From contig NC_092576.1 of NCBI RefSeq assembly GCF_037975245.1, positions 40,368,111 to 40,432,110 of the forward strand: a DNA stretch of 64,000 nucleotides. Direction: 5' to 3'. Source of the DNA: Apostichopus japonicus. Its lineage: Eukaryota; Echinodermata; Holothuroidea; Aspidochirotida; Stichopodidae. The position numbers and the translations under genes were made by a program. Shown here piece after piece: positions 31,956-64,000 of the stretch. The notes beneath the pieces were generated by a model. The model was given only the letters and a program-made list of their open reading frames with translations, did no database searches and had not been told where the DNA came from. The stretch's first letter is position 1. Every line of letters starts with the position of its first letter.

Positions 31956-33019
31956 TTATAGTCTCAACATGTGCTTGAAAACTCGTCTGAAGTTTTTATT
32001 AAACCCACAGTAAACCAAGGGGTTTGCGACTGAATTCATTGCCACGGTGAAAAATATCAAAACTAATTCCCCATGCTTTAATTCTGTACCTCTAATGAGA
32101 AGAAAAAAACAAAGGTGACAAAAACAAAACATTTGTTATAAATATAAAGAAGTTGACTTTTGTTAGTTTGATTTCATAGGAGGAAAATTGTCTACATGAT
32201 TGTCTTTGATGACCAGTCGTTTGATGATTTTGTCCAGCTGATGATGATAATGGGTTTGTTGATACAAGAGTTACTGACACGTTGCTTGTGGCAGGGTTAT
32301 TTTGTCTCACTCTTTGATGACTTTTGCGAACAGTTCGGAAAGTCAGGACATAAAACAATGGAATTATAACAAAACAACTAAAAAATGTAATAATTAATGT
32401 GTAAACTTTGTACAAGATTCCGATGAAGTTATTCTCTTCGTAAAAGCAAAACTCTTTACCGAAGAAACGTTCTGTTCCGTACGAAGTAACGGAGACTGTC
32501 AAATTTAGAAGTATATTAAAAATCCATACAAATGCAATCTGCAATGTTATAATTCGTTTGTTAAACAGTTTATGATATACGGTGCGGTTCTTTGTCACAA
32601 GTACGTACCTGTTAATAGCAATCAATATGAGATGTTGAATCGAAACAGGAGTAAATGTTGTACTCGTTTGGTAAAATAATCGACACAAAAATGAATTTGA
32701 AATCACAGTCTCTAATGAAGCAAACGCAACCGCGAGTAGAGGTAACACAAGGCAGCAAGTTCCAAAATCAGAAAATGCCAAACTTACTAAATAGTTATTT
32801 GCAGCAATCCGCAATTTTTCTGTTCTGGGTGATCGCAAGTACAACGAGAACGTTACCAAAAGATCCAAACATAAATCCTAAACTGCATAATATAATTAAG
32901 AAGTGTTTTATTACTGGTGGTATCGGCAAAGCTAAATAGTTTAAATAGGTTGGATCCAGTGTACTGTGCACCGTCACAAAGCTTGACTGGTCGGTTGTTA
33001 GATTTTTGTATATTTCCAT
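31956..33019 (-). pseudogene. Class A (rhodopsin-family) GPCR broken by two homopolymer frameshifts
   Basis: The minus strand encodes a seven-helix receptor of about 353 residues in three frame segments, without introns. The N-terminus MEIYKNLTTD has an N-glycosylation sequon. TM1 contains GSFGNVLVV (Asn1.50). TM2 has SLAFSD (Asp2.50). TM3 starts at FLCRLFY (Cys3.25) and ends INRYV (NRY in place of DRY). TM4 has the Trp in AFVWIF. Loop 2 has the partner Cys (EFCFYEE). TM6 ends FLSPLFF and TM7 has VANPLVY (NPxxY). The frame is lost at T5 (32815-32819) and again at A7 (32103-32109); one base less in each run would restore it. Two homopolymer lesions and otherwise intact motifs make assembly error a serious alternative to a true pseudogene. 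NRY recalls melatonin-type and other orphan receptors. The ligand is unknown. Confidence 0.85.
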
Positions 33020-34216
33020 TCTCGCGATGTATGCGTATGGATTCAGTTATCAAATGTTTTTCACAGTAAATTACTGAAAGTATACTTCTAAGTAATCATA
33101 ACTTCAATGGCGCTGCTTTTATTACAGGGTACCTTGCGGGTACTCACTGAGCCTTTGTGAATAATATCATAAGTTTCAAAGGTTTAAGGTAGGATTTGTT
33201 CTTACTAAGCTGATTAGCTCCGGCAAAAGTATACTGTACATTACCGTACTTTTGCGCAACTTCAATAATCCCATTTGATGCTTATGTGCAAGCTTCATGA
33301 TGGTTCAATAGGTTCATCAATGTCTTTGTCCTATAAATCACTCACAAATTGACAGTTGTAAAAAATATGCTATTCACAGTACAATGAGCAAAGGAATAGC
33401 TCTCACCTATAAAAACAAAATTTGACTAGGATTGGATTTATAGACCTTGTCTATATGCTATAAATGTTCGAAGTTGAACTATATTCTCGAGTTATTCAAT
33501 GATGTGTTGCTTCAAGTGTTTTGAAACAAAGAGGAAGTCGAGGAAGTCGAGGAAGATTCCGGGCCGTCCTTAAAAGTGTTTCGTTTCTTCTTTCTTTCTT
33601 TTTTCTTCAACAGAAGAAAACACTTTACTTGTAATGACAAGATGATTTCACTTTCAGTTTATAAAATCAATGAAGATTTCATCCACATCCTGTTTAAACT
33701 ATAAACTAAATAAACAACATTTACTGATGATATTTTGTATAGACTTTTTCTTTCCTTTCTTTCAAGAGAATACTTTACAGATTAAAAACTCAAACTTCAA
33801 GCCACAATTATGAAAAGTTCTTGTTCCATTTGATGTAGAGCAGTGAGTAAATGGCACACTTTCTAGACAAAGTAAAAACTGTAATACATAAGAAAAAACA
33901 TGATTCTGTATCCAGTTTTTCTCAGCTCTGGAGTAAAATTACTTCTCGGTATTCTTTCATTCTCGGAAACGTTCGTTTCGACATCAGTTTGGTAACCAAC
34001 GGAAGCACAGATTGAGCAACGATATTAGAACCTGATACAATCACTGTTGGATTCCAAGTTGAAAGTAACTGAATGTTGACAGGTTTATGGTCTTCCAATT
34101 AAGATTGCTCTTTATGAGGGTGGAACCACTGCTCTTGTTGTGCGGAAGTCAGATTGTTCCCTGCATACACACATAGAGTGTGTGAAAATCTTGATTAAGC
34201 GACAATTAACAAACCT
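33020..34216. other. Stretch upstream of the GPCR without a supported gene
   Basis: AT-rich DNA with a short GAGGAAGTC array near 33531-33555. The GPCR promoter should lie here, but I see no clear TATA box or initiator. Confidence 0.5.
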
Positions 34217-37880: not shown

Positions 37881-38439
37881 GTAAATTTTACATGATGTTA
37901 TTAATACAAAGCAAGAAATGCGTTTTTTATCCGAAATTAAAAGTATTTGTAGGTTGCTTACATGCAATTGTTATTTTATCTGTACCGAAATATCCTCTTA
38001 ATTTATATCGTTGATGAGCTCACGAAGCAAAGTTACTTATATGTAATCATAATGGCTTTATACGGCTTATATCTGCTCATGGTCCATATCAAATCACTCT
38101 TTTGCTTGCAAACGTGTGTTTTACGTAAACAAAATTTTCCTAGGTGTTTTCAAGCAGCAACATGCTAAGAAGAAAAATATGTGAAGGGAAAGAAATAGTC
38201 AAGTGTATGGGATTGTTAATCTTAAACGCAACGATTGCTTTTCACATATTTTAATTCATAACAATCTAAATTAAGTATTGTGCCAAAATGGTAGATGAGT
38301 TGATTAAGACTTTTGAAAATAAAGACCGTAAATAACCGGAAAAAATATAATTTTGATGGATAAATTGATGCAAAATTTAAAATGAATTAATTTGATAGTC
38401 AAAGCCATGTAGAAGGTTTATATTCTCTTCTATTCTTAG

Positions 38440-38607
38440 ATTACTACATCCCGACTGATGAAAGTCCCAAACAGAGAGGAGTGTTTGGAGACAAGGATAT
38501 TTGCTTTATCATGAATATTAGTTTGGATCAGTGGCATAACAGGTGGATGGGAACAATACCGGCCACAAAAGGAACAAAGGCATGTGTGGTGCTAACGACC
38601 GTCACTG
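38440..38607 (+). pseudogene. Gene B exon 2: start of kinase-like N-lobe
   Basis: The exon has 168 nt, exactly the length of gene C exon 59195-59362, with the same phases. It reads NYYIPTDESPKQRGVFGDK, then NRWMGTIPATKG and KACVVLTTVT. The NYY start, NRWMGTI and VLTT blocks are shared with gene C. The position of the VAIK lysine is leucine. Confidence 0.8.
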
Positions 38608-38654
38608 GTTAATTTATATCCTTTATATTGCCATGTATGGTTCCGAGATGTTAA

Positions 38655-38724
38655 ATGGAGCCTGTACATGTACAGTGATCAAGTTAACCATGGAGCCTGT
38701 ACATGTACAATGATCAAGTTAACC
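38655..38724. repeat. 35-bp tandem duplication
   Basis: Two adjacent copies (38655-38689 and 38690-38724) starting ATGGAGCCTGTACATGTACA and differing at one base, in the intron of gene B. The inner GTACATGTAC is palindromic. Confidence 0.9.
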
Positions 38725-38959
38725 TCTGATAATAAAGTGATAAGTATGCTTGTGTTTTAACATAGTTATAAACTAGAATATCTTGTATTGTCTAAGCGTT
38801 TCCAAAAGAACCAAACGTTTTGCTGATGACTTCAATTGTAATGAAATATTATATCATGTCCTACAATATGTCGTATAGGCCTAATCCAGTTCAAGGAATT
38901 ACCAACTGAAATAGGTAAATACCTTGTGACTATTTCTTAATGTAACTTTATTAATGCAG

Positions 38960-39064
38960 AGCAAGTTTTTCGAAGAAAAGACATTCATTTGGATGAGTCA
39001 TCAAAACGACCCTTGACCTGCCCTATACGAAACATCCTGTAAAAGTTGGAATATGGAAAGGAAG
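38960..39064 (+). pseudogene. Gene B exon 3 with a 1-nt deletion
   Basis: Acceptor ttaatgcag. The frame first reads QVFRRKDIHLDE. After a missing base between 38998 and 38999 it continues one frame over as IKTTLDLPYTKHPVKV, parallel to FVKRTLDLP in gene C. Without a shift the frame stops at TAA (39041). The donor region (gtacag) is weaker than in gene C. Confidence 0.68.
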
Positions 39065-39384
39065 GTACAGAACAGATATACAACAATTCTAACATTTTAA
39101 TGAAATACAGCCATGTCATCATTAATGTAGTTGATATAGATAACTGCCATGAACAACTTTCAAAAGAAGCTTAGAGAAATGTTACTCCATGTGGAAGATA
39201 TCATCACTGGTTTAATGTTTCAACACACACACACAGGGTTGAAGACTTGATCAAGTCTAAATATGACATCATCGAGCCACATGTCCGTGTTTTTCCACCT
39301 TACTCACATGGTTATGTGGGAAAGTGGAGATGGATTTTGCAAATGACAAAATAAGAAAGCGCTAACGGTAGCATTGGTTTCTGT

Positions 39385-40055
39385 GTCAACACTAGGTCAC
39401 AACTATTATCAGATCTGCTAACTATCATCTCAATAACATGAGTCGTGCACGCAAAATGCTCACTACTGAGGCAGCCAAGCTAGCTGTGCACACATCAGTT
39501 ACCTCCAGTTTGGACTACTGCAACAGCCTCTTGATTGGTGTAAACAAATCCCAATCACTAAACTTCAGAATGTCCAACGCACCTCTGCTCGCATCATTGT
39601 CAAGCGTAAGAAGTATGACTCTATCACATCGGAACTCATTGCTCTTCACTGGCTCCCTATACAACAGCGCATTAAATTCAAAGTTCTTCTTCTTGTGTAC
39701 AAAGCTCACCATAAACAGTCGCCATCCTACATATCTGACTTACTACAGCTGCAAGCACCACGAAGACAGCTTAGATCATATACATCTTCTCCTCACTTTA
39801 TCGTGCCCAGAACCCATGCTGTGTCATTTGCAGATCGCTCATTCTCCTGCTATGGACCAAAAGAGTGGAACACTCTTCCAAATCACATCAAGGATGCTCA
39901 GACTATTCATATTTTCAAGAAACTGCTCAAATGTTATCTTTTTCAAGAAGTGTATTGTAATTAATTTAATGTAACTGTCTTGAGCGCCTTTGAACAACTT
40001 TTGTTGATTTTGGCGCTATATAAATGTTTTCTGATTGATTGATTGTTTCGTATGC
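39385..40055 (+). mobile_element. LINE 3' fragment (CR1/L2/Jockey group) in an intron of gene B
   Basis: The end of an RT ORF in two frames: SRARKMLTTEAAKLAVHTSV with LDYCNSLLIGV (39438-39560 frame), then YKAHHKQSPSYISDLLQLQ, SFADRSFSCYGPKEWNTLP and FKKLLKCYLF (39695-39964). The order YKA..PSYISDL..RSFS..PKEWNTLP is typical for the C-terminus of these LINEs. The tail holds TGGCGCTATATAAATG and ends in TGATTGATTGATTG. It is 5'-truncated and frame-shifted, hence dead. Confidence 0.85.
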
Positions 40056-40511
40056 TTTCAAATATAAGATTAATTTCAGGATATCTTCATCATATCCTAT
40101 GCCTTTGCCTAATTGTCTGTCCAATAGATAAGGAGACGCTGTAGTTACATATAACTATTACAGGAATGCTGAGAGATTACGACCGAAATTCTTGTTTGTT
40201 TTTATTTAAGTATATTGCAGTACACAAACCAGAAAATGGCAAATTAATATAAACTTCAGACTAATTGTTGCTAAGGCAAAAACGACTTTGGCAAAATGGA
40301 ACTCAATCCAGTTAGCCACAAAAAACACGTGTTTTAGTTGTTAGTCATGTTGAATTCGTTCTTTGATTAAGTTTTCATATTAAAATGTGTATACTGATTG
40401 ATGGAAATGTTGATATATGAAGGAGAATGAGAGAAAATAACTTTAATATTTGACCAATTTCAAAACCATTGTATCAAATTTATAATTATGTCTCTCTTGA
40501 ATTTCTTTAAG

Positions 40512-40673
40512 CTCAACTGCATTTAGTACGAGCACATTGCCTGTGAGAGGCTTGGTTGTTGGCTAGTTAAGGTTTTTAGCAAAGAGACATTTGAAAATAC
40601 TATGTACTTGTCTGAGGTGATGGGTATCATAGCCGGACTACTTGAAGGTTTAAACCTCATTCATTCGTACGGG
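40512..40673 (+). pseudogene. Gene B exon 4: hinge and helix E, with a 2-nt deletion
   Basis: After acceptor atttctttaag it reads QLHLV. At 40529 one base stands where a codon is expected, and the frame continues as EHIACERLGCWLVKVFSKE and LSEVMGIIAGLLEGLNLIHS. Gene C has TLYLVTEHNVCD and IEGIECLQSYG-type sequence at the same place. Donor gtatgt, phase 0 out. Confidence 0.75.
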
Positions 40674-41278
40674 GTATGTCTTCAATAGCTCTAAGTGATT
40701 GAACAATCATATCTATCAGGATCGGCATCATAAATGAGGAGTTTGTTTATAACAACAGAAATGTAGATTCGCAGAGCCAAATGTTAACTTTGATCATCTA
40801 TTCTTGTTGAGTGAAACATATTTTATCAACCATGCAAATTACATTTCGGATAAAACTATTTCATCAACACAACAACAAAATATAGCAAAATTACTTCGTT
40901 TCCATTATATACCTCCTTTAAGTTACTGCTTGGCTCTCACTAAAGTGCTTATTATTTAATAATAAACATAATATTTCATTTTTCAAATAATACAGAAATT
41001 AAATAGGTGATTGAACACAATAATTCACCATAATTATTATTTGCAACCTAATAAAATAATTTAAAGCTCGTGAGCTGTGTATCCATGATGAAACTATCAG
41101 CTTTGAAACCTTTTTTTTTAATACTTTCTGTTGACATAGCTACTGCTTTCTGCCAATTTAAAGCATTCTTTGTATTGGAAATTCTTTATAAAGTTTCGCA
41201 AGTTAAGTTTTTAGAAATACAGTTCTCAAACGCAAAATTCTCTAACGTTTATAAGGTTTCTTCTTCTAACTGTCTCAA

Positions 41279-41401
41279 TGGTTTCCACATCCCGGCTTGT
41301 CCAGCAAGAAAATATTACGAATCGAGAAAGGACAATGCAAGCTTTACGATGTCTGTCTTTCCGAAGATGCATCAAAAATCACAACCTTTCGAAAAACTAA
41401 G
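41279..41401 (+). pseudogene. Gene B exon 5: catalytic-loop region, splice acceptor lost
   Basis: The exon reads WFPHPGLSSKKILRIEKGQ, then CKLYDVCLSEDASKITTF, with donor gtacgt, phase 0 at both ends. The bases before it are ctaactgtctcaa: a good branch point and pyrimidines, but AA (41277-41278) in place of AG. HPG replaces HRD and DVC replaces DFG. The corresponding gene C exon has 120 nt; this one has 123. Confidence 0.78.
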
Positions 41402-41553
41402 GTACGTGTTAAATACCGGTGATATAGTAGTGAGGGCGTGCAACGTCAAATTTAATGGTAAAGTATATAATGTAACTGAATTATAAACATTAACAGGTGT
41501 AAAAAGTCTCGAGAGAATTCTTAATTAAAGCTTGTCTTTGTCTATCTCTCCAG

Positions 41554-41662
41554 GTTTCATTTTCGTTGAATCATTTCCCGCCAGAAGCTCTGCATCGCAA
41601 TGAATATTCATACCCTAGCGATGTCTCGGCTGCAGCTGGTGTAATTTGGGAAGTAATTACTG
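41554..41662 (+). pseudogene. Gene B exon 6: APE region
   Basis: The exon has 109 nt after acceptor atctctccag and ends at G|gtaaat, as in gene C. It reads VSFSLNHFPPEALHRNEYS, then SDVSAAAGVIWEVIT. PPE replaces APE. The open frame continues into the intron to 41901, which is not taken as coding because the next exons fit in phase. Confidence 0.8.
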
Positions 41663-42191
41663 GTAAATTATTCGAAACGTATTCTGAATCTCTGCTTTGT
41701 AAAAAGAATCATATGGAAAGAATAATTAATGATATTTATCATGACAAAATGTTTTCATTCCAACTTATTTATGATGTATTATGGAGATACTTATATAATC
41801 AGAAAGCACAATATAAAATAATAGAAAATATCAACTTTGAAGAACGCAGCAGCAAGAACGGACCTTATCAAATTAACATTAGTCATTTGTGTGTCCTATA
41901 AACTGTAAATATGAAAATCTATGACCACATGAAAGTTATTTTCATCTAAATAATCTCTCTTGCCCTCATTTAGGAGTTCATTTCCTTTCTTGAAATTACA
42001 CAAATGTAACGGAAATTAAAATAATATAAAAATGATTCAATTTTTAGTTTCATTTATACGACAAATTAACATTCATAAAAATGTATGTAAAAGAAAACAA
42101 GCTTTTTATACCAGTAAACAGGGAATTTGGCTGTAATTTGATATTCTTTTTTTTTTCATTTCACATGTAAGCTTCCATTTATCCTGTGCAG

Positions 42192-42264
42192 AAGATAGCA
42201 GTACTTTCGAAGAACAGTATGGGGCACCCTCAGGATCACAAGTTACTCACTATGAAGTAATAAG
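42192..42264 (+). pseudogene. Gene B exon 7: C-lobe
   Basis: The exon has 73 nt, phase 1 in and phase 2 out, with acceptor cctgtgcag and donor gtaaac. It reads DSSTFEEQYGAPSGSQVTHY, then EVIR. Phases match the gene C exon 56343-56436, although the sequence is diverged and shorter. Confidence 0.65.
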
Positions 42265-42850
42265 GTAAACATCAATGCCACGACAAAAGAAAATCGAGAA
42301 CTCTATTTGATTGATTTTAATTCCCATCATTATTTTCATTTTTTTTTGTAATAAAAGAAGCATTCCACGTTTCATATAGCGTCACGAATCACGATAATAA
42401 GAAACCACAATTGTATTGAAATGTCAATTTGGAAAAGAAAACCTATCCAAGTTGTAAATGATACAATTCAATTTAAACATTAACCCTTGATTGGGTATCA
42501 CTCGTAAAGTTTTAAGAAAACAAAGTCACAAAATTAAATTTGGGTTAAATATTTATTAAATTTTACAACAAGAAATTAACTTAACAGGACTCCTTATAAA
42601 TTATAAACCTTTATTTTTATTTTCAAGAACTATTTCAACAAACGAAATAAATGAGATCGAAATCAACCAACACGCAATGGCAATATTATCAATATCTTTC
42701 GGCATAAAACACTGAGTTCATTAATTTATTTTGTCGAAAAGAAAATGATGGAATGAAATTGTATGAATGACATTGCTATAACTTTACATTTTATTATGTC
42801 AGATAGCATAAACATATATATTAAATTGTTGTTTTGCTTTAAACTAACAG

Positions 42851-42941
42851 AAATAATCAGTTATATCAGTGCTGGCACAAAGTCTGTCCTCAACGCCCGA
42901 CTATTTTAGAGCTCAGGGAATCTTACCAAGGGGTAAAGTAG
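42851..42941 (+). pseudogene. Gene B exon 8: end of the kinase fold and stop
   Basis: After acceptor aaactaacag, phase 2 in, it reads NNQLYQCWHKVCPQRPTILE, then LRESYQGVK and TAG (42939-42941). It corresponds to NLVLFDCWSQKCSLRPSI in gene C, including the conserved CW and RP near the last helix. Confidence 0.75.
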
Positions 42942-43155
42942 TCAAGAAATATTCTAATATTGTTTTCAATTTATTTGTTCAAACTACTTTTTCCCCATAA
43001 CTTTTAGAAAGGATGTGTCATTTGTGTCCACTTGTTTTCCAACGCTCCAAGCAGGCATATAACTTTGTATAAGTTATATAACTTCCATGTATTGGTAAAT
43101 ATTTTATATACAACCTATCATCTCGATGCCTTTTATAATTAAAATATATCAAGAC

Positions 43156-43161
43156 AATAAA
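43156..43161 (+). terminator. Poly(A) signal AATAAA for gene B
   Basis: AATAAA about 215 bases after the gene B stop codon, a normal spacing for a short 3' UTR. Confidence 0.5.
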
Positions 43162-45599
43162 AGTTTTCCTTCTACTTTAATTTCAAGTTTATTCTTAACA
43201 TGTCTTAACCCGTACATTAACGCAGTCACATAATTGAAAAATTGTTTTTAATTTCATGTTGCTATTTCTTTTCTTCTCATGATAGATCTTTAAAAAATTA
43301 GCTGATAATGCCTACGAGATTCCGCGTATGGACTTGTACACTTCTATGAAAAGTAGTACACTATAAAATAAAAATGGGGAGAAGTGTACACTGATACTTA
43401 TGCTTTAGAATCGTAAGGAATCATGTCTGCAGGGTTTTTAATACTGTCGACACAGTGTTCGCTACTGATCCTTACTATTTTATATATGAATTTTCATGAT
43501 CATGATTTTGTGTACATATTTTACAGTTGGGTAAAGCTATGCGAGTGTGAACTTTATATAGTCGTTCTATAGTTTCAATATGTATCACCAGTACGGAATC
43601 CTGTATTAGTCGTATGTACACTGTGCCCACTCGGCATATACTGTTATGTATGGGCCAATGTCACTCCCACTGTATCTGAGTGAACACGAACACTAATACT
43701 TGTAAATATGTTGTTTCCTTAATAACTACGCAGCTGAGTATCAAATCGTAAGTTTTACTGTTTGAGACATTTAAATGTAAAGGAGAGATATCTTAGGTAA
43801 TTAATTCATAAATAGTGTTAATAGTGGATTACTCCATGATCAGGTGGCAGCTCTTGCAAAGTTGTTCTCCGAATAAACTTGTGTTAATAAGTAATTCACT
43901 CGCGGTTCTTGTTTTCGTTTTCATTTTAAATGAGACCATTCCAGTTGTATTAGTTTGTAGTTATTGCCTGCTTTCTACGTAAACATATTATCATTTTACG
44001 ATAACTTCCTAACATTTTATTAAAGTTAATTCTTTATTTTAAAGTGTTTCAATGTCATACCCTGTTTCCTGCTTTGATTTACAACAGAGGAAGTTCGTAT
44101 ATACAGTGACAAGAAAAATTCCAAAAGGAAATACTGATAATATATTGTCAACTTGTATTCTACTGTACGATAACATTATCTCAGCGTGTGTAACGTTACA
44201 CTGTAGTGAAAACTGTTACAAACATATCAAAGTGACCGGCAGTCAATACACTATTATTCAAAAGTGATAAAGCAAACATTGTAACGCGCATTAAGATTAT
44301 TTCTGAGAAGCTAAGTTACTAAGTGTGTTGTGCAAAAGTGTTTATGCTGTTACTATTCATTTCACTTTCATTTCGTAGCGACCTAATGAGTGGTTAAAGT
44401 GAAAGGCACACCACTTAAACATGTTGCAATATGTCCATCCGTCAACGGTGAATTTGGACAATGTGTTTAGTGTGATATTACTCTCTTCAAATGAGCCCCT
44501 TTAAGTTAACGCGTATCTCACCTGCAAATAAGATTATTTCTGGTGTTTTTAATAATTTGGAGTGTCAATTCAAGCACGCTGTTTTAAAGGGACCTACTTA
44601 GTAAAATTATCACAGGTCCTCAAATTTAACCTTATCATATTGTATTAATTTATTTTTAAGGCTTATAATTTCTGTATATTGATCTGCATTTTCTTTTTAG
44701 ATCCCTGTTGGTTACATGCATTAAACGTTAATATTCTTTTTAAAGTAACACAAGTGATGCGTTATTTGATAGTATAACAAAATTAATGAACTTTGCAGAA
44801 TACAAACTGTACTAAAAACATGTTGAACACAATTTTTTTCGTCGTTACCTATCATTATGTTCTATGTGATAATTTTATTACTTAAATGGAATTAATTAAC
44901 ATAACTACAACTCATGAAAATGTAATTTGACCATTTGATATGCAACTTTAAACATTTAATGTTCAAATTTACCCCGAGTTCCATGAAAAGGTTAGATTTT
45001 TCTGTTTCTAGTAAAGGTCTACGCTACAAGTGGTTGGGAAACCAGCAGGTGAAGCCTGTGAACAGATACTGTAATAATATATCACACAGCGATGAACGAA
45101 TGTATAACGTATCGTGCAGTGTATCTATTGGTCTATGATCTATTGGTACCATACAATAATAACAATAATATACCTTCGATGAAAAAAGACCTAATGCGAT
45201 GCTTGCTTTGGCATATTACCAATTACCATTATTGCCTTTTCTGCCTTCATGTGGAAGAGCGTACATCAAAGTACAGATGGTGTGAAAATAATGATTGAAG
45301 ACGATATAAACCATTACAACATGTGTTGGTTCATTTGGACATTACTCCGAGCAAGGGTTGAGATTCGGGATGCTTATCTGGCTTGTCTTCTAGCTCAAAA
45401 TCTTAACAGTCATGGTACAGACATTTGCAAGTACCGTGACAGGTTAATACCTCAAATACCATGCGGGTTTTGCAAGTCACAAATTTAGTGTGTAATTCAA
45501 TGGAACGGTTAATTGTGGTACGACACCTAAAATATAGTTCCTGGACTTGGGTGTACCCCCGAATATTTCATAGACTTCAACCTAGATGTTTTCAAAGGA
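43162..45599. other. Stretch without a supported gene
   Basis: AT-rich DNA. Open frames at 44052-44267 and 44935-45643 overlap in several frames and show no domain. I saw no repeats beyond simple sequence. Confidence 0.5.
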
Positions 45600-47224: not shown

Positions 47225-48260
47225 GCGACTATTATAGTCGGTTTAATGACTGGGAAACGGGAAGAAACATTTTGGTTTTCATAAGGGTCAGTTTTGGGAC
47301 CCCATTCTCTTCCTGGCCTATATCAATGATATTGGTAATGCTGTTTCTTCTGGTGTCCGACTGTTCTCTAATGACTGTGTCCGTTATCGGGTTATCGATG
47401 ATGTCAGTGATAGTCATCAACTTCAGGAAGATATTAATATACTAGGACAATGGGCTAAAGATTGGGGCATGAGTTTCCAGCCTGTGAAATGTAACATTAT
47501 GACCATTACTAGAAAGAGGAAACCTGTGAATTTCAATTACATGCTCAATGGGGTTAACTTAGCTAAGCTTGATTGTGTTAAATATTTGGGTATTCATATC
47601 ACTTCAGATCTCAACTGGGGAAAGCATATTCAAAATGTGTGTAACAAAGGCATAGGATATTGGGAGTTCTTCGTAGAATCTTATCCCCTTGTTCGAAGAA
47701 TGCAAAATCGGCTGCGTATAAAGGTCTCCTCCTGCCAGTATTGGAATATGCCAGTTCTGTCGGGGATATCCACCAAGCTTTCTTGAAGCACAACCTCGAA
47801 AACATTCAGAGGCGTGCAGCCCGTTTCATCGCTTCAGATTATTCAAGAGAGCCTGGCTCTGTCTCATCTCTTTTACGGAACCTAAACCTGGTGCCCTTGG
47901 CAGAGAGGCGCAGGCAAAGTAGAATCATCTTATTTGCTAAGGGCATCTATGGTCAGGCTCAGATCCCTATTGACTGCCTAAGAAAGCCTCTGCGTAGGAG
48001 TCGGAACATGCACGATATGCATTTCTGCCAATTGTATGCCAGTACCAATTGCTATAAGTATAGTTTTCTTCCAAATACAATTAGGGATTGGAATAGTCTG
48101 CCTTCAGACCTCAATAGTAGTTCCAGTGGTTCTGTGAATCCTGTCACTCATATCAGTACTCGGGTCAGATTTAACTAATTACTCTCTTGACGTGTGTGTG
48201 GTGAGATATTGTCCCTTTTTGCGGATGTGTCACCGTAACGAAGACGAAGACGAAGAGGAC
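47225..48260 (+). mobile_element. 5'-truncated LINE (Jockey/CR1 group), RT to C-terminus
   Basis: The frames read GQFWDPILFLAYINDIGNAV (motif B region), then LFSNDCVRYR where ADD has become SND, then LGQWAKDWGMSFQPVKCNIM and KLDCVKYLGIHITSDLNWG. After a frame change near 47660 comes a long C-terminal part (47660-48178: LEYASSVGDIHQAFLKHNLE, RRAARFIASDYS, and RDWNSLPSDLNSS). The order is standard for Jockey/CR1-type RTs. The 3' part includes GAAGAC repeats (about 48240-48258). Catalytic motif loss and the frameshift make it dead. Confidence 0.85.
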
Positions 48261-54484: not shown

Positions 54485-55587
54485 AAGAATAAAACAAGCA
54501 AGAAAAATTAAGCTTGGAGTGACATACATATATCTTCCATTTTGTCATTCATATCATATTTTATGCAAGTAGAAGCAAGGTCATTCGTTAGAAGGGTGAC
54601 ACCAGTGGTCTTCTTCACTTTGTTATAATCGACATATGTACATCAAATTGTTATACGTATCTATAATCGATCCCATGTAGGATATGCCATATCGTAGTTC
54701 TATTGCTAGTTGATATATTACAGCTATGTCAGTTGTCATAGCCACAATTGTTGTAGTTAATTGAGGATTTTACTGGGTAGCTACTCTCAGGGGTTCACCC
54801 ATGGAAGGGTACCCCATCGTGAGGGACGGGGGCAAAATGTATCCGTTTGTGTGGGTACGTCAATGTGTGTGGCAACACACAAACGCTCCCAACCCTAACA
54901 GATACAAACACTAACCCTATTGATGTTGATTGATCATATTCGATAAACAATTTCATCAATATCTATCCAAGTATAAACGTTCACAATGACATCGATTCGA
55001 ACTGTTCAAACAAGATTAACGTAATCATTATTCTGCTGTGATTTTTCGCCTCCAGTTGCAAAGACATTTCTCTACAATCAACATCCGACATCGATTGCAA
55101 GGAACTTGGCGCAATGAGCATCACTTTGTTTTCTTTTTTAGAGAAATTGTTGTTTTAACTACAACTACAGTAATGGGTATCTTCTATGCATATAGGGTTA
55201 TCGGTAGTTGTCAAAAAAATTGCTATCATCTGAAAAGTCCATCTATTTTCGTTGCGCTTCTCTCAATTTAATTTTAAAGAGTAGTTCCACCCATTGGCAT
55301 GTATGATTCGGAATGTGGTATCTCATAGAAACTGTTGTCTATTAAAGTTTCAAAAATCTGTGGACATAAAAAGAAATGCCATGTTAGATGCCCATGAATA
55401 TATTACTAGTTGTTTCTTACTTCTGAAATTATTTACTTAATTACAATTAATTGGCTCGTTGTAGGTTTCATTTTCGAATTCGAGTTTACTGTTCGAGAAA
55501 AGAATTTACATATTAACTTAAACTGGTTGACAGTACATTGGCTCTGACGGTTACGTAGAAAAATTGCAAGTTTGCAACGGCTTGTAT
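54485..55587. other. Stretch downstream of gene C without a supported gene
   Basis: AT-rich DNA. The 3' UTR of gene C should lie here. The best poly(A) candidate on minus is ATTAAA at 55272-55267, a weaker variant. Confidence 0.45.
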
Positions 55588-55753
55588 TTAAAGCATTAGA
55601 ACATCAACTCTACGGTGTGTGTCTTCGGTTCCTTTAAAATAATAATTATATTCATTGGGAATTTCACTTACTGCTTTGAATGATTCTTTAAGATGATGAA
55701 TTGAAGGTCTAAGAGAACATTTTTGACTCCAACAATCAAATAGCACCAAGTTT
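55588..55753 (-). CDS. Gene C exon 16: end of kinase fold, tail and stop
   Basis: After acceptor tcttttggcag, phase 2 in, it reads NLVLFDCWSQKCSLRPSIHH, then LKESFKAV and a 25-residue tail to TAA (55588-55590). A donor-like gtaagt at 55671-55666 could end the coding exon earlier. The direct read-through is the simpler model. Confidence 0.72.
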
Positions 55754-58700
55754 CTGCCAAAAGAAATGTAAAATAAAAAGTACTTTGTACACAATTACTA
55801 TGCAACAGTGAAATGATTATCGACGTTTGGAATACAAAAAAAATGTTTGCAAAAGTATTAAAGGTTATCCTAAAATAAAACATAAAAAATGTTTACTAAT
55901 AAAGAAATGTGTCAATTTGAATTGATATGTTAACACCCCTCTATTAAGATGTAAGACAATATTTAAGTTATCACATTCATATATTTAGTGTCAGTTCACT
56001 TAAATATTAACATGTCATTTCATCCATAAGAGCTGTGACAAGCGTTTGGTTGAACCAAATGATAATTATTATGTTTCACCACTGTTTTTTGGCGTTAAAT
56101 TGCTTATCTCGTAGTAGTGGTTTTGTAAAACTATTACATATTGTTAGAGTACCATCATCATACATGATTCTTTTATTGACAATACTGGTCTACTAACTTT
56201 GCTAAAAAAGAGAACGATCTCGATTGATTTGTCGTATTTTCATGTGAATTATTACAATAATTCACAGGATTGATAATAAATTCGATGAATAAATGATAAA
56301 CGATTGGCATGATATTAAGTCAATTTGGTAGGTAAAGTATACCTCAGCTGTAAGTATCTTTGAGGCCAATTCAACGTCGGTGCTTTAACATCTTGACCGG
56401 GTTTTCTATCTTCATCTACTGGAAACGGGTGTTCTCCTTCGGAAAAAAATCGAAGAGAAGTTATAACAATGCTAGCTATTATCAGATTCATTTCTTTTTA
56501 TGAGCTAGTGTTTTGTACATTAAAAAAAAGGAAAGAAAACTTTAGCAATAAGTTTGTTACTTGTAATAAGCAGGAACGTAACAAATACAACACTCATTGC
56601 AGTTCAATGTTTCTCTAACCCACATTATTTTGCGTATTAAGATACTATTAGCATAAACGTTGCTCTCTAGATATCATGTAATATTGTAGATCGCTTTCTC
56701 AGACGATGTTATTATCGATAACCTTACAATAAGTCATGACACTATGAAAATACGAGAAAGACAAATTCCAAAAATTACTACGGTCATTTGTCATTTCACC
56801 ATAACCAAATGTTAATCGAAGAATTGTATTTGTTTTGTCAATACATGTTTTTCTTACATACACAAATGATAGTAACACTATATTATGATAACGATCATGC
56901 TATAGATATGACTCATAGACATATTACATGTGTATACTTTATTTACCCCTTGATAATATCTCCCATATTACTACAGCTGTGGACCATACATCACTCTCTG
57001 CAGTGTATTCATTACGGAAGAAAGATTCTGGAGGAAACTGATTTAAGGAGACAGTATTTATCTGGCAAAAATATGAAATTTGAAAAGCTATTACTATGAC
57101 TGACTTTTTCGTTCATATTGGCAGCATGGTATAGTTACAAAAAATGGAGAAGTAAATATTTAGGTTTTATCTGCTTTACATTTGATTATTTTTCTTATTT
57201 GTAGAAAAAAATTGAAACCACCGTTAATAATCAGAGACAACCAAGATGGAACATGATCACCATTAGTCGTTAATAAACATGTGACCTGCAATAACATATG
57301 TTTGTTTATGATGGAACGGAAATACTGATTCACTCTTATGAAACGTTCTGTTAGGTGACACTTTATTTAAAAATGATATTTCGTTTCATAAATGAGGTGA
57401 AAATATTTTTCGAAAGTAATTATCAAACAAGCTATAGTTAGAAATACATTAGACGTTGGAAATTGCTATCAGAAAGATTATCACCTGTGTTTTCTTTAGA
57501 GCTATTATCTTTGACGCATCTTCAGCAAGACAGAAATCATATAATTTACAGATTCCTTCCTTTGTGTATAGAATCTTCTTAGTTGATAACCCCGGATGTA
57601 AAAACTGTTAAAGTTAATTGGACCAGATATGAATAACAAATCTGATATCGATCTTTCAAAGATAAGATAATACACAAATAATTAATACAAACAATAAACT
57701 ATTAAAACAGTAGAATAATGAACAAAGTCGGCTGGATGTAATCAGGGTGTGATGTATTATATTTTTTTAAACTTTTACGAAGAGATTTTTGAATGTTGTC
57801 ATCAAAAATAATTTCCAGGAGGTTATAATATTCGTTTCTTCAAATTGTCATGTGGCATGTTTTGTTGATTCTGTTAGGCTGAATTATTAGTGATCTAACT
57901 ATCATACTTACGCAAACGTGAGAATAATCCATAAATATTTTGTTAATAATGATAATAATATTACAACTTCTTTATATTTGGTAAACAATACTTATAAGCA
58001 ACTATATTATTGATACATGAGTATACCACAAACTCACCCCATACGACTGCAAACATTCTATTCCTTCCACAATGGCAGTGATATGCTTCATTACATCCAG
58101 TACTAAAAATGGTCTGCTATGTGAACTCGGGTCATTTGTAAGGCGGCTATCCAAAGTATCACAGACATTATGTTCGGTAACGAGGTAAAGAGTGGCTGTA
58201 ACGAAATCCTACTAGTGTGAAGCAGAATTAATGGTATAACACCGTGCAGCTCGAATTTTACGTGTACACATATCCACTGACTATATAGGTATAGCCAACG
58301 TCAGAGAGGCATTCCTATTCGTAATTGCATACCATGAATAATCCGATTATTCCCTTCACTGGTGGTTGAAGTTTGCTTTAACTTCATTATCCTTGAATTT
58401 TGACATGGCGTTAACACAATTGATGAAGTAACAAGTAGAGGTTTGTCCTAGAAAATGCATCTTAATAAGTTGCTTTGTTCCAGACTTAGCAGAGGATCAT
58501 TAGTCCTATGGTTCGGCGTTGGCTGGCAATTTTATTGACTGTAGCGATTACTTATCAAATATAGATTTAAACTCAAAACCATGATCATGGATATTTCAAT
58601 AATTATAAAAGATGATCGGGAAATAAATAGTGATTTCAACATTTCTTTAGCCAGAAAAGTAATCATTTTGTCATATGTTAACCAAAAACGCTTCAACAGA

Positions 58701-61700
58701 AAGTATAATAGCGGTCTGTTATCTAAAATGTGTTCTACTTGACCTAAACAGTATACTCCTCATATGATATCACCAACAGCAACAAGTATTGATGTGTAAC
58801 TTAGGCCTCTACAAGAAGAGAATAACTTACTTTTGTCGACTGCTATTCCCTCAATTCTCGTAAGACGATCGGTCGTAGGTAGATCAAGTGTACGTTTAAC
58901 AAATGCATTCCAATTGATGATTGTTTTCTTTATCACTCCCTCTAAAGCAGAAAAATGGGGTTATAAACTCAATATCTTTCGGGTCACATAGGATTTTAGC
59001 AAGAAAGGAACATTTCTCTGTAAGGTAACTGACTTAAAAATACAGGAAATGCATGTGGTATTAAAATATTTAAATTCACTGTTTACATTCCTAGCCGCAA
59101 TACTTCAACACAAGCGGAAGGTTCTCGTTAACATTTTTACACTTGAAACGCACGAGTGAACATAAAGGCTTTCAACAATCATGCTGCGACTTACCTGTGA
59201 TTGTCGTCAGAACCGCGCATTTGTTGACGTCACTGGACATTCTTATAGTACCCATCCATCTATTGTATATTGTTCCGACCTTTATAGTTAATAAGATGCA
59301 GAACTCACTCTCACTAAATATTCTGTCCTTTGTCCCTCTTTCCTCTGCCGCAGAGTAATAATCTGTAAAGCAGAAGCAGACGTAAGAAGCAAAAACATGT
59401 TCATATTTGTTTAAAAATAATTAAGGGTTTATATAGGTAATAGGTAAAAACACAATAAGGTAGAATTGGAAAAGGCAGTGACAGTATATATCAACAGCGA
59501 TATGCTTGTTTGTATTATAATGTTTTCAAATACATTTAACAATACAATAATATGTTAGCATTTATCATTAAGTTATGCACTGTGCCTCAATTAACACATT
59601 AAAATAAAATCAACTTACTGCTTTCACTGCCACTAGAGTGGATGGAATTGCTTTCGTCGCTCGGAATACTTGGAAGATCTGATCTGATAAGAAATAAAGA
59701 AATGAAGTAAAAATGTCATCTCGTAACTTGTCTACATTAAAGAAGACGGTAACAAAGCTTATTAGAGTAAGTATCTGAAGATACCTTCAACTCCTCAAAA
59801 TCTAATTGAACAAACACATTTCTATTAAGAAAATGATTGAATACCATTAAATTCTTACAGTATGCAAAATTACGGTTATGACACGGTAATTATAACCATA
59901 TTGTTTACGTAATATGCCATATTAAATATAAATATAAATTATTAGGTATGCAGTAACATAAATTAATCAGCCCTTAAATTAACTCATTTAGCCATATACG
60001 CAACTTTCTAAATTCACGCAAACAAGAACCACACCTTCTATTCCTAATAGTATTAATTGCATTTGGCCTAAATACTTTAGTTCTTACTTCTGTTTGTTTT
60101 TGAGACTCCCTTGTAACGGATTCTGTAAAACTAAAGACAGAAATGTAGCAGTGAAGAAGATATCAAAATAGTAACGATATGTATATGATTTCTAATATAA
60201 TATTTTTTACTTACGTGGTTGGTCAGCCGGTAAGGTGTTGAGTTGCAGTTGAGTTGTACCGCCCATGGTTGTACCTGCGTCTCTAAATAGATCATATGTA
60301 TGATTGTTATTGCTGTGGAAAATCCAGTTCCCTTAAAATGTATCTAATATATATGCAGTTTTAACTTCTACTTCAAAAGCATCTGCTGAGAATCGTGTGC
60401 AGGTTTGGACATTGAATAAATTAGTCCTATAACTAAGTTTATATTCATTACAAATTGCACATCAAGATAAAGATGTATCTTATTTTAGAACATTTGGTAA
60501 TTTAACAGAGCTATATAATGGATGAACATGTAGTCGTTATAACTCCGTCAATGTAATAGATATAATTTATCAACATCAGACTAATGAATAACCGACAACA
60601 TCAGACTAATGAATAACCAACCAATATCGGTCATTATTCAAAATCCGATTTGGATTTTTGGTGCTGAGAATACAATTTTAATAAAAAAAGCCTCTTTCAA
60701 TGTAGAAAAAGTCGACAGCTTAGAAGTATGTTAACAATCATACAAAAATAAATGGACAAAAAAGTCTTACGTTGACAAATTAACAGACGACGAAGCTGCA
60801 GAAAATATGGAAATATTAAAAGTGTCAATACGATAATTATTCTGCAATTATATGATCTTTATAAGCAAACATTAAAATATGTCATTTTACACAACCTACA
60901 ACCAGGTATCATTATCTACAGTCACTCTGGATAAATCGTAAGACTACTTCAAATTGGTAGTCTTCATTTGTTTATTGTAAAGTTAACACATCCGTCATTT
61001 GTGTTCATGACATAACTGAACTTATGATATAGCATACCATATCGATTTTATACAACTTAACTTACCTCTTATCTTCATTGTTATCTTATAGGTACAGACA
61101 AACAAGAAACAGAGTAACATAATAGCAATACTCAGTATGATCCATTGAAGATATCCTGTAAAGAGAGTTGATAATTTCCTAGATATCTTAACAGTTTATG
61201 GAAACATGTTCATACATCTACATTTCATATACCAATTAACATCCTCGAATACAATCTTGGACCTGTTGGGCATTAAACTATCTTCACATGATAGTGCATA
61301 CTCTTATACAGAAAAAAAGACACAAAGAATGACGTCAGAGGTTCGTTTCACTACTATTTCCGTATTTTACAGGAATAACTATGGCGGTAACAAAGTGTGA
61401 TTATTAGATTTTATATTATTAGAGATTTCATCAAACAAAAAAATAATAAATTCCACTCTGTATCATTATTGCTACTGATCAACCATCCTTAATGAATCTA
61501 TTGGCATTACGTAAATAACTGAATGAAAGAAAACCTGCATATAGTGGGTCTGCCGTTGGTTTATCTGAAAGAAAATTAAAACCGTTTGGCGGAAAATTAA
61601 AACATATGATACTCTGTAGCTGGTGAATTTAAAAAAAAAACGAAACGACACTTTGTAATAACCGACTTTGAAATTCAATGAAAAGGTGCTCAATTAGATG

Positions 61701-63334
61701 ATAACTCAATGGTCATTTCATAACGAAAACAACAAGGCAAAATAATACAACAAACAACCAACATAAATTAATATATGATATAGGTATCAATAAATTCAAA
61801 GCATTAAAGAGATCATAGATCATCATTGATATATTTTTTGGGAGCTATTTAGCCTTGGCATAAATTACTCATAGTATCCAAACCTGGAATTGTTGGTTGT
61901 ATTGTCGACTCGTCTGAAGAAAAAAGCAGAGAATGATATGTTTCATATACGTTTTGAACTATTTGTATCACTTAATTTAAACAGATTGCGGGATAAGTGA
62001 TCTTCAAAATGTCAACATCAGAATGGGTTATATGTATGAGAGGATATCTTGAGGAACGAAATTAACATTGAAATGTTGTAGACAGTTAGAAACCAGTGAT
62101 ATTATTCTAAGGGTGTACTTTTATACCATATTTTATTACATGTTAAACAATTGAAGTCCATCAATTAAACAGACTGACTGAACGACAGATGGTGTCGAAT
62201 GTCACCCAATTTAACAACTTTAACATATTCCAATGTGTATTTCTTGTAAACCGGATACTAGGGAAATGTTATAAACACTAATTTTTAGGGTTTTTATTCC
62301 TCTTAGATTATGAATATGTAGATTACTGTCTATATAACGTGGTGAACGGATTTTCTTTTTAGCTTACCAGACAGAGTAACTGTCGTGGTGACAAATGTTG
62401 TGAGATCACATTCTCCGTCTCGTCGTTGTGTACTCGTACATGTAATATTCTCTTCTTTCAGCGGTTTTATCAAAACAAACGATATTCTTCTGGACGTATT
62501 TGTGGTTAGTGCCATTTCAGTCACAACTTCATTGCGGTCATTGAATGATAACACTGCTGTAGGTCTTGCACCATCAGCATGACAAATGACTGTTAAATTC
62601 TCTCCAGCAGTAACATAATTCTTCTCAGTTCTTTCTCCATTCAAAGTAATGTAAAGCTGTGGAAATACTTTCATCAGCAAAAGAAGCACATATGTAATAT
62701 TATAATCTGCTCTCGTTTAATGTGGAATTATTACGATACTTGTATATTGTATTTGAATATTGAGCACAACAGACTGGAAAACAGATAATTCTCCAGTTTT
62801 GGAGTTAAACGTAAAACAGTAAGATATTACTAAATATAATCAAGTGAACATATGTGAACGCTCTGGAAGTTAACAAAAATAATTTCCAAAGAAAACCTGT
62901 TTATAATACCGACTAATATTTGCTCTAACATTTACAAAGTTGCGGGAATTCAATTCAACGATATTTTGTTTGCCATCTCTTTGCTTCTTAGTGTGCTGTG
63001 ATATATGATACTGTTAACTTACCATAGGTATAGAGTGACACTCCCACATGGTACTCTGATGATGTCACACTATTGCCATAGCAGGATATCGATTCATTTA
63101 CTTGTGTCGGTATATAATCCAGCAGAGATTTTGAATGATATAGTGGTGTATCACCTTCTGAAACATTAGTCTGTGTATAAATCCTATCGCGATCATTTAT
63201 AACCCAGGAAAGGTTCACCTTCGGCTTCGAGTCCCAAGCAAAGCACGTTATAACCGTCAGCTCATACTGGGGAACCCAGACGTAAGATTGATTAAGTGGA
63301 AATTCATTGATCTTCAGTGACATCCTTGGAGGTA
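55588..63334 (-). CDS. Gene C: Ig-transmembrane-pseudokinase receptor, 16 exons, N-terminus off the right edge
   Basis: Sixteen exons with AG/GT borders and matching phases give 630 residues plus stop. Order: Ig domain 1, Ig domain 2, a stalk from two 30-nt exons, one TM helix (IILSIAIMLLCFLFVC), a serine/threonine-rich linker, and a complete protein-kinase-fold domain to a stop at 55588. Kinase landmarks: NRWMGTI, CAVLTT (VAIK lysine replaced by Leu), TLYLVTEH hinge, FLHPGLSTKK (HRD to HPG), YDFCLAED (DFG to DFC), FPPESFF (APE to PPE), SDVWSTAVVIWEIL (helix F Asp kept) and CWSQKCSLRPSI (final Arg kept). The missing lysine and catalytic Asp predict no phosphotransfer; a scaffold or allosteric role at the plasma membrane is inferred. 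NYYSAAEE at the N-lobe start may be a phosphotyrosine site. Signal peptide and any further Ig domains lie beyond the edge. Gene B is a broken paralogue. Confidence 0.88.
56343..56436 (-). CDS. Gene C exon 15: C-lobe
   Basis: The exon has 94 nt, phase 1 in and phase 2 out, with acceptor ttttccgaag and donor gtatac. It reads GEHPFPVDEDRKPGQDVKAP, then TLNWPQRYLQLR, in place of the G-x-x-P-[YF] helix G segment of tyrosine kinases. Confidence 0.75.
56947..57061 (-). CDS. Gene C exon 14: APE region and helix F
   Basis: The exon has 115 nt, phase 0 in and phase 1 out, with acceptor atttttgccag and donor gtaaat. It reads INTVSLNQFPPESFFRNEY, then TAESDVWSTAVVIWEILS. Helix F is well conserved, including the structural Asp. 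Confidence 0.83.
57485..57604 (-). CDS. Gene C exon 13: catalytic-loop and DFG region, degenerate
   Basis: The exon has 120 nt, phase 0 at both ends, with acceptor aactttaacag and donor gtgata. It reads FLHPGLSTKKILYTKEGI, then CKLYDFCLAEDASKII. HPGLSTKK stands for HRDLAARN, so the catalytic base is Gly. DFC keeps the metal-binding Asp but loses the Gly. Confidence 0.87.
58038..58195 (-). CDS. Gene C exon 12: hinge, helix D and helix E
   Basis: The exon has 158 nt, phase 1 in and phase 0 out, with acceptor tcgttacag and donor gtgagt. It reads TLYLVTEHNVCDTLDSRLTN, then FLVLDVMKHITAIVEGIECL. TEH marks the hinge, and the amphipathic end is helix E before the catalytic loop. Confidence 0.82.
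58831..58941 (-). CDS. Gene C exon 11: N-lobe, helix C region
   Basis: The exon has 111 nt, phase 1 at both ends, with acceptor ttctgctttag and donor gtaagt. It reads GVIKKTIINWNAFVKRTLDL, then PTTDRLTRIEGIAVDK. The WNAFVKRTLDLP block corresponds to the broken exon 3 of gene B. Confidence 0.8.
59195..59362 (-). CDS. Gene C exon 10: start of kinase-like N-lobe
   Basis: The exon has 168 nt, phase 1 at both ends, with acceptor ctgctttacag and donor gtaagt. It reads NYYSAAEERGTKDRIFSES, then IYNRWMGTIRMSSD and KCAVLTTIT. The glycine-rich loop is not recognisable, and the VAIK-equivalent CAVL lacks the lysine. Identical in length to gene B exon 38440-38607. Confidence 0.82.
59619..59683 (-). CDS. 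Gene C exon 9: serine-rich juxtamembrane segment
   Basis: The exon has 65 nt, phase 2 in and phase 1 out, with acceptor ttcttatcag and donor gtaagt. It reads SDLPSIPSDESNSIHSSGSE. The acidic serine cluster looks like a casein-kinase-type phosphorylation region. Confidence 0.7.
60088..60130 (-). CDS. Gene C exon 8: cytoplasmic linker
   Basis: The exon has 43 nt, phase 1 in and phase 2 out, with acceptor tgtctttag and donor gtaaga. It reads LLQNPLQGSLKNKQ. Confidence 0.68.
60215..60282 (-). CDS. Gene C exon 7: cytoplasmic linker
   Basis: The exon has 68 nt, phase 2 in and phase 1 out, with donor gtaagt. It reads DAGTTMGGTTQLQLNTLPAD, then QP. Low-complexity Thr/Gln-rich linker. Confidence 0.7.
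60571..60619. repeat. 25-bp tandem duplication
   Basis: CAACATCAGACTAATGAATA plus ACCGA, repeated at 60596 with one late change, in an intron of gene C. Confidence 0.88.
60771..60795 (-). CDS. Gene C exon 6: cytoplasmic linker
   Basis: The exon has 25 nt, acceptor ttttctgcag and donor gtaaga, phase 1 in and phase 2 out. It reads ASSSVNLST. Very small, supported by splice consensus and by both neighbours' phases. Confidence 0.65.
61066..61155 (-). CDS. Gene C exon 5: transmembrane helix
   Basis: The exon has 90 nt, phase 1 at both ends, with acceptor ctctttacag and perfect donor gtaagt. It reads GYLQWIILSIAIMLLCFLF, then VCTYKITMKIR: about 18 hydrophobic residues followed by basic residues, a type I membrane stop-transfer. 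Confidence 0.85.
61535..61564 (-). CDS. Gene C exon 4: stalk mini-exon
   Basis: The exon has 30 nt, phase 1 at both ends, after acceptor tttctttcag with donor gttttc. It reads DKPTADPLYA. Same length and phase as exon 3, probably a duplicate. Confidence 0.68.
61884..61913 (-). CDS. Gene C exon 3: stalk mini-exon
   Basis: The exon has 30 nt, phase 1 at both ends, after acceptor ttttcttcag with donor gtttgg. It reads DESTIQPTIP, a Thr/Pro stalk segment. Its symmetric phase means it can be skipped or repeated without loss of frame. Confidence 0.68.
62368..62667 (-). CDS. Gene C exon 2: Ig-like domain 2
   Basis: The exon has 300 nt, phase 1 at both ends, with acceptor gatgaaag and donor gtaagc. 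It reads VFPQLYITLNGERTEKNYVT, then GENLTVICHADGARPTAVLS (first Cys) and EENITCTSTQRR (second Cys). The core Trp position is taken by LSFND. Sequons NLT, NTS and NIT. The upstream cag at 62657 would break the phase, so the start at 62667 is chosen. Confidence 0.82.
63023..63334 (-). CDS. Gene C exon 1 visible: Ig-like domain 1
   Basis: The exon has 312 nt, phase 1 at both ends, between acceptor ttacgcag and donor gtaagt. It starts VPPRMSLKINEFPLNQSYV and contains LTVITCFAWDSKPKVNLSWV with the first Ig cysteine and the core Trp, then NESISCYGNS with the second cysteine. One Ig fold on one phase-1 exon is the classic Ig-superfamily arrangement. There are N-glycosylation sequons at NQS, NLS, NVS and NES. 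Confidence 0.85.
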
Positions 63335-63699
63335 CTGCGTAAATTAAAGAAGTAAACATTTCTGTGAACGATTTGACAAAGAAGACACTTTTTCCAAGTT
63401 TGAGAACTTGCGTCGCTGTTGTAAAAGGGTACATGTTGACGCTAACCCGCCCCCCCCCCCTTCCTGCAATCACGCGGTTAGCAGCTTGTCTACGTTGAAA
63501 ATATATAACTGAGGATTTTTATGAGAAAATTCGCAGGAAGGTTGTCGTTACGTTAAATTTGTATAAACAATTTTGATAAATTATCTGTATTACCCCACGT
63601 GAGCTAAATTGCATCTACTCAAAATATTAACACTAATGTAATACACATATACTCAGCAAAACCACATCAATCATGTCATTAACACTTGCTTCTATTATT
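63335..63699. other. Intron or upstream DNA of gene C
   Basis: Contains a C11 run (about 63450-63460). No further Ig exon found before the LINE fragment. Confidence 0.55.
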
Positions 63700-64000
63700 G
63701 TCGTTACTGACTACATTCTTGATAATATGGACAAGTGTCAGAATAATAGTGCTGTGTTGTTGGACCTAAAAAAGGCCTTTGATGCAGTCAACCATGAGGT
63801 TCGTATACGTAAATTATCATATTATGGGATACGGGATGATGAGCTGACCTGATTCTCTAATTGCATGCCAAATAGAGAACAAACTACTATTATTGATGAG
63901 GGTAAATCTGATGCAAACCTGTTACACTTGGTTACCCTATGAATCAATATTAGATCCACTATTGTTTCTCATTTTTATTAATGACCTTCCTAATGTAGTT
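63700..64000 (+). mobile_element. LINE reverse-transcriptase fragment cut by the right edge
   Basis: It reads VTDYILDNMDKCQNNSAVLL, then DLKKAFDAVNHEVRIRKL, the canonical RT motif A (DLKKAFDxVNH) of CR1/Jockey-type LINEs. The frame then meets TGA (63848-63850) and later stops, so it is dead. It lies upstream of the visible part of gene C, in its intron or 5' flank. Confidence 0.8.

Follow-up and report, generated by a model that had tools for sequence, protein, structure and literature searches.

A predicted receptor pseudokinase at the right end of the window

What does a membrane receptor do with a kinase fold that has lost its catalytic residues, and is a gene for such a receptor real? The question is raised by the right end of the window, the 64,000-nucleotide stretch of the sea cucumber Apostichopus japonicus analysed here, where a gene on the minus strand encodes immunoglobulin (Ig) domains, a transmembrane (TM) helix and a fold of the receptor tyrosine kinase (RTK) type. 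The locus is a genuine gene, annotated only in part, that belongs to a large and uniform family of sea-cucumber Ig receptor pseudokinases, whose members probably act as docking receptors.

The gene has 17 in-window coding exons, which run from 63334 to 55274 with consistent phases and GT-AG borders. The encoded protein has two Ig domains, a stalk spread over two 30-nt exons and one TM helix, after which a juxtamembrane linker leads to a kinase fold with a short tail. The architecture as far as the kinase fold and the consistent phases are those of a preliminary description made from the sequence alone, which, however, had given no strand, had counted sixteen exons, the 17 found here including one at 60795–60771, and had ended the gene at 55588. 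In fact, exon 16 stops at 55672, and the stop codon is carried by exon 17 (55357–55274), which had been missed. Because model residues 236–630 are identical to the whole of the A. japonicus NCBI protein P0001 (395/395), annotated as 'uncharacterized protein [Apostichopus japonicus]', exons 5–17 are not a chance assembly. P0001 itself begins within the TM helix and leaves out the Ig exons. Exons 1–4 lie outside P0001 and are based on splice signals and paralogues, with exon 1 and exon 2 sharing 85% and 86% identity, respectively, with the paralogue P0002. At its 5' end the gene is incomplete, as exon 1, which opens in phase 1, encodes no signal peptide and further 5' exons lie beyond the window; by inspection, the close paralogue P0002 seems to have a leader and contains additional Ig domains.

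In the extracellular part, exon 1 (63023–63334, phase 1-1) encodes Ig domain a of the C2-set_2 type, which is identified both by Pfam (E 1.7e-9) and by paralogue identity, whereas Ig domain b, encoded by exon 2 (62368–62667, phase 1-1), scores below the curated cut-off (Ig_2, 23.1 vs 27) and is recognised by its strands in the predicted model of the paralogue P0003. The stalk is encoded by exon 3 (61884–61913) and exon 4 (61535–61564), both in phase 1-1. Since the donors of both are weak (gtttgg and gttttc, respectively) and the paralogue P0039 has two additional residues at the stalk junction, the joints of the stalk are where the model is least secure. Exon 5 (61066–61155) encodes the TM helix in which P0001 starts, and is followed by the juxtamembrane exons, namely the 25-nt exon 6 (60771–60795; ASSSVNLST, identical to P0001), exon 7 (60215–60282), exon 8 (60088–60130) and exon 9 (59619–59683), the last of which carries an LPxIP motif.

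The kinase fold begins in exon 10 (59195–59362), which encodes a conserved YY pair followed by β1–β3, with RWMG and with CAVL at the VAIK position. Exon 11 (58831–58941) covers the helix C region, without the invariant Glu in a by-eye alignment, and exon 12 (58038–58195) extends from β5 to helix E. According to the exon model and the family alignment, exon 13 (57485–57604) encodes HPGLSTKK at the HRD loop and YDFCL at DFG, and exon 14 (56947–57061) encodes the PPE motif, which occupies the APE position, and the helix F Asp. The C-lobe continues through exon 15 (56343–56436) and exon 16 (55672–55753), the latter including the late Arg-Pro, and exon 17 (55274–55357), identical to P0001, encodes IFETLIDNSFYEIPHSESYMPMGGTTL and the stop codon, with YEIP and YMPM in it and the tail NSFYEIPHSESYMPM running up to the stop. 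The four motif replacements and the retained helix F Asp and late Arg-Pro, all named in the preliminary description, are thus borne out by the model.

The Pfam scan and the single-sequence searches were run with an interim 15-exon model or its kinase part, and the kinase fold is identified at E 2.6e-27 (PK_Tyr_Ser-Thr, 96.2 bits vs a cut-off of 23.1). Which solved structure is closest varies by method: FGFR1 ranks first by profile A1 (E 6e-43), ephrin receptors by single-sequence search of solved structures, VEGFR2 by Foldseek and FGFR by VIA-align. In the fold search with the predicted model of P0003, in which the Ig part was searched only together with the rest, the matches listed are kinases. 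Taken together, the window gene encodes a single-pass membrane protein with an RTK-fold intracellular domain, and, with the VAIK Lys and the HRD Asp lost, would be a receptor tyrosine pseudokinase, which agrees, as far as tested, with what had been proposed for this locus. The echinoderm origin that the preliminary description had guessed is likewise correct, the source being a sea cucumber.

An altered active site shared by a large sea-cucumber family

We assigned 98 proteins to one family, 76 from A. japonicus, 20 from Holothuria leucospilota and two further ones. A kinase-half sequence search returned 95 proteins and a profile search nine more (P0096–P0104); P0089, P0090 and P0092–P0095 were excluded as other kinases, and the set also excludes P0197 and P0198, relatives of P0091 found later. 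P0091 is kept within the 98 but is doubtful, as it scores under a fish PDGF receptor and sits on a branch of length 4.85; a search from this most divergent member returned P0091 and two other A. japonicus proteins. Annotated names within the family include FGFR on at least four members (P0011, P0022, P0073 and P0101) and Eph, VEGFR and Cad96Ca on others. Another paralogue is annotated in two forms, P0039 and P0040, one of which has an Ig domain more than the other; both stop short of HPG and may be isoforms that lack the dead C-lobe.

The 56 proteins from the chromosome-level A. japonicus assembly group into 39 clusters at 90% identity, 46 at 95% and 49 at 98%, counts that are rough because clusters do not equal genes, and the clusters lie on ten contigs, mainly two (34.6 and 46.0 Mb). 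A tree was built from 76 rows, i.e., the 83 representatives at 95% identity minus seven short or broken ones. The window gene falls within a 38-row clade of A. japonicus proteins only (support 97/99), and several clades contain H. leucospilota proteins only; the family has therefore radiated separately in each genus, while the deep order of the tree is unsure owing to long branches.

The lineage-specific family suggested in the preliminary description thus apparently exists, although its limits are only as good as the searches made. In the kinase-half search, the hits above the level of ordinary kinases that carry an organism name all come from A. japonicus or H. leucospilota. In the profile A2 search, for which 7,997 candidates were scored, E drops from 8.9e-80 for the last sea-cucumber protein to 9.2e-17 for ribosomal S6 kinases, and the best 120 of 199 matches include 28 of the 98 members (19 already known, nine new), the query member P0001 not being among them. 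Since few candidates were scored and only 28 of the 98 members are among the matches listed, a restriction of the family to sea cucumbers appears weakly supported.

Across the family, the altered active site is nearly uniform, with the consensus HPGLSTKK and YDFCL. HPG occurs in 85 and DFC in 89 of the 98 proteins, a recurrence that supports the family, and the window gene shares its motif set (HPGLSxKK, YDFCL, RWMG and a tail YxxM). Specifically, the β3 Lys is present in none of 95 aligned rows, the HRD Asp in one of 91 (P0069) and the catalytic Asn in one of 91 (P0063), with Lys at this position in 89; the DFG Gly is present in none of 92 rows, 89 of which have Cys instead. Neither a canonical HRD[LMI]...N nor a homologue with an intact VAIK/HRD/DFG set is found among the 98 proteins, and no active sibling of the family was found among the proteins retrieved. 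At the helix C Glu position the by-eye alignment has Phe or Val, where a gap could bring in a nearby Asp or Glu. In the 83 representatives, the HPG residues His234 and Pro235 and the RWMG residue Trp121 are invariant when gaps are ignored, and K241, D254, F255 and C256 vary by 0.1 to 0.3 bits, compared with a kinase-domain median of 2.0. P0069 (HPD) and P0063 (KN for KK) have one catalytic-type residue each, and the rest of the set is missing from both.

A conserved tail motif suggests a docking receptor

The conserved YxxM is the strongest clue to the output of the receptor. YxxM occurs in 60 of the 65 recognised tails, compared with a mean of 6.6 and a maximum of 15 in shuffled tails. The columns from the kinase fold to the end (370–395) are mostly variable, at 2.1 to 3.6 bits (1.85 for P389), amid which Y387 (67/72) and M390 (69/72) are nearly fixed. 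The form YxPM is found in 41 of the 65 tails, and Y[ED][IV]P stands four residues ahead of YxxM in 33; the YxxM of the window gene is YMPM. Additionally, the juxtamembrane pair Y87–Y88, which also stands in a segment that otherwise varies, is kept in 66 of 77 and 69 of 76 rows, respectively. As both the dead site and the tail signal are kept family-wide, both presumably still matter.

p85 prefers pYxxM. We favour, with moderate confidence, a model in which the Ig pseudokinase is phosphorylated by another kinase and recruits phosphoinositide 3-kinase (PI3K) via YxxM. Specifically, the variable Ig ectodomain would bind a ligand or partner and thereby cluster the receptor with an active tyrosine kinase, which may be a true receptor kinase or a kinase of the Src/Tec type. 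This partner would phosphorylate the tail tyrosines, and the resulting pYxxM could recruit the p85 SH2 domains of PI3K, as in HER3 or IRS-1, with the pseudokinase domain serving as a docking or allosteric platform rather than as an enzyme. In combining a dead kinase with a PI3K-recruiting tail the proposed mechanism resembles that of HER3/ErbB3, from which the receptor differs in having an Ig rather than an EGFR-type ectodomain and one conserved YxxM, where HER3 has several. PI3K recruitment is stated for EGFR–HER3 (PMC13259870).

That family members are produced as proteins is indicated by a study of intestine regeneration in A. japonicus, in which a 'Tyrosine kinase receptor Cad96Ca-like' protein appears with the phosphopeptide IEAISIQS(0.958)S(0.042)K, with a modified ratio of 0.581 (P 4.36E-03) and a mean protein expression of 0.641 (PMC6037860). 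This peptide (IEAISIQSSK) matches exactly in 12 of the 95 proteins returned by the kinase-half search; family members are therefore translated and serine-phosphorylated in the N-lobe.

Several observations weigh against the docking model. The phosphopeptide is missing from the protein of the window gene and belongs to other members, and the known phosphosite of the family is a serine in the pseudokinase N-lobe. YxxM is absent from five of the 65 recognised tails, and no tail was recognised in 18 of the 83 representatives. Residual ATP binding or weak catalysis appears possible from the sequences, as 89 of 92 rows retain the DFG Asp, and an Asp or Glu two to three residues before the expected helix C Glu (76/98 rows) could substitute for it. 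Finally, past the anatomy we infer every step, from ligand and partner kinase to tail phosphorylation and PI3K binding.

Alternative explanations

Alternatively, the receptors could be decoys or dominant negatives that bind the ligands of true RTKs or dimerise with RTKs and damp their signalling, the tail motif being a relic. Their sequence and fold lie near FGFR and other RTKs, the activation segment has no Tyr in 66 of 80 representatives (in the window gene protein, none lies between DFC and PPE), and both the phosphosite and the protein ratio given above fall below 1 in the regeneration comparison (PMC6037860). However, neither a relic YxxM that remains the most conserved column pair of a variable tail across two genera nor a fixed pseudo-active site would be expected of decoys, which we consider unlikely.

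Equally to be weighed is that these are non-catalytic recognition receptors of a diversified germline repertoire for immunity or allorecognition, in which the pseudokinase would be an adaptor platform. The tens of clusters on ten contigs and the separate radiations in two genera are in line with such a repertoire. Seven paralogues were compared with the window gene, and six of them share less identity with it in the Ig domains than in the kinase (38–41% vs 70% for P0009; 27–33% vs 61% for P0013), and Ig domains are gained and lost, Ig a occurring twice in P0002 and not at all in P0040. The opposite is seen in P0040, where conservation is higher in the one shared Ig domain (93%) than in the kinase part (91%), and quicker ectodomain change is common among receptors, so that we place this explanation just after the decoys, as likewise unlikely.

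It is improbable that the proteins are active kinases that use an unusual route, whether with a displaced Lys like that of WNK or with a different base. The retained DFG Asp, the conserved Lys at the catalytic Asn position and Arg120 in β2 would suit such an enzyme, but the β3 Lys, the catalytic base and the Asn are lost in nearly all members, and the activation segment usually lacks Tyr. That the locus is a pseudogene or an annotation artefact is the most improbable explanation, for although a decayed paralogue lies within the same window, 17 of 17 exons are open, phase-consistent and bounded by GT-AG, exons 5–17 are identical to P0001 starting at its first residue, two species share the motif set and a protein-level peptide exists for family members.

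Relation to known receptors and to published expansions

The docking receptor proposed here is like the human receptor tyrosine pseudokinases (HER3, PTK7, EphA10, EphB6, ROR1/2, RYK and STYK1), which are single-pass proteins with a kinase fold that lacks catalytic residues; among them, PTK7 likewise has Ig domains outside the cell. Receptor pseudokinases, to our knowledge, rarely form large families, and what is new among receptor tyrosine pseudokinases is the motif set, the family scale and the single conserved docking motif. Specifically, the motifs are VCIK/HRN/DFG in HER3, VLVK/HKD/ALG in PTK7 and VAVH/HRG/GFG in EphA10, and, as given in that source, none of the eight human proteins combines CAVL, HPGxxxxK and DFC, six of the eight keep the β3 Lys, and the PTK7 set is matched neither by the window gene nor by the family (PMC13259870). 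The earlier statement that no described family has exactly this motif set thus holds among the families compared.

FGFR is approached in the profile search of solved structures, in VIA-align and in the Ig ectodomain, yet the VAIK/HRD/DFG set is absent (CAVL/HPG/DFC) and an activation-loop Tyr is usually lacking; the window contains two Ig domains, compared with the three Ig domains and acid box of the FGFR pattern, with 5' exons lying outside it. AjFGFR2, which was cloned from A. japonicus, has three Ig domains and an STYKc domain, and its primer-encoded ends are found in none of the 198 proteins retrieved (PMC9890533). FGF signalling in this species has its own functional evidence, which we do not dispute (PMC9890533).

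Zhang 2017 lists the tyrosine-protein kinase receptor as one of five expanded and clustered families in A. japonicus (PMC5638244), and Li 2018 describes 38 Fgfr genes, the majority of them in a clade apart, most of which are suppressed during aestivation and activated during regeneration, from which FGF signalling was inferred (PMC6018497); a 2026 preprint repeats both expansion claims (PMC13228809). The terms 'pseudokinase', 'kinase domain' and 'catalytic' have no match in the main text of Li 2018 (PMC6018497), and the titles and abstract openings listed from the PMC literature, a scope that excludes subscription papers and supplements, hold no description of the family as pseudokinases. Passages of PMC13428168, PMC12784826 and PMC8913654 likewise contribute nothing to the biochemistry of these receptors. 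The published tyrosine-protein kinase receptor and Fgfr expansions probably overlap the HPG/DFC family. A more speculative extension, possible but doubtful, is that a large germline Ig recognition repertoire signals via one dead-kinase platform and a single PI3K-type motif, with a CD28-like output on an RTK chassis, and that the 'Fgfr expansion' published for gut regeneration is largely this repertoire rather than FGF receptors. Many predicted non-enzymes are found among the sea-cucumber genes that bear the names tyrosine-protein kinase receptor, Fgfr, Ephrin receptor or Cad96Ca, and inferences that lead from expansion to FGF signalling in regeneration therefore need checking. In tens of sequences the ectodomain varies while the dead site stays almost the same and a single docking motif is kept, so that a non-catalytic role of the RTK fold can be tested directly.

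Neighbouring features

A decayed paralogue of the P0047 type lies on the plus strand, opposite to the receptor gene, at 38439–43401, where tblastn detects pieces at 38439–38606, 38956–39051, 40530–40673, 41282–41407, 41557–41661, 42188–42265, 42849–42935 and 43292–43401; no Ig or TM exons were seen for it. It has in-frame stops, a frame break and the changes DFC to DVC and SDVW to SDVS, and illustrates release from constraint, in contrast to the fixed dead site of the family. An open reading frame at 39470–39964, without a Pfam match, lies within one of its introns. A fragment of a rhodopsin-type G-protein-coupled receptor (7tm_1, E 1.4e-23) is found on the minus strand at 32092–32877, probably continuing at 32795–33046 on the same strand. 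Reverse-transcriptase fragments (RVT_1, below the curated cut-off) occur on the plus strand at 11672–13733, 47250–47786 and 63637–63852, the last of which sits between exon 1 of the receptor gene and the end of the window. Additionally, a 36-bp tandem array of about 17 copies at 19251–19858 is open in two minus-strand frames as repetitive peptides.

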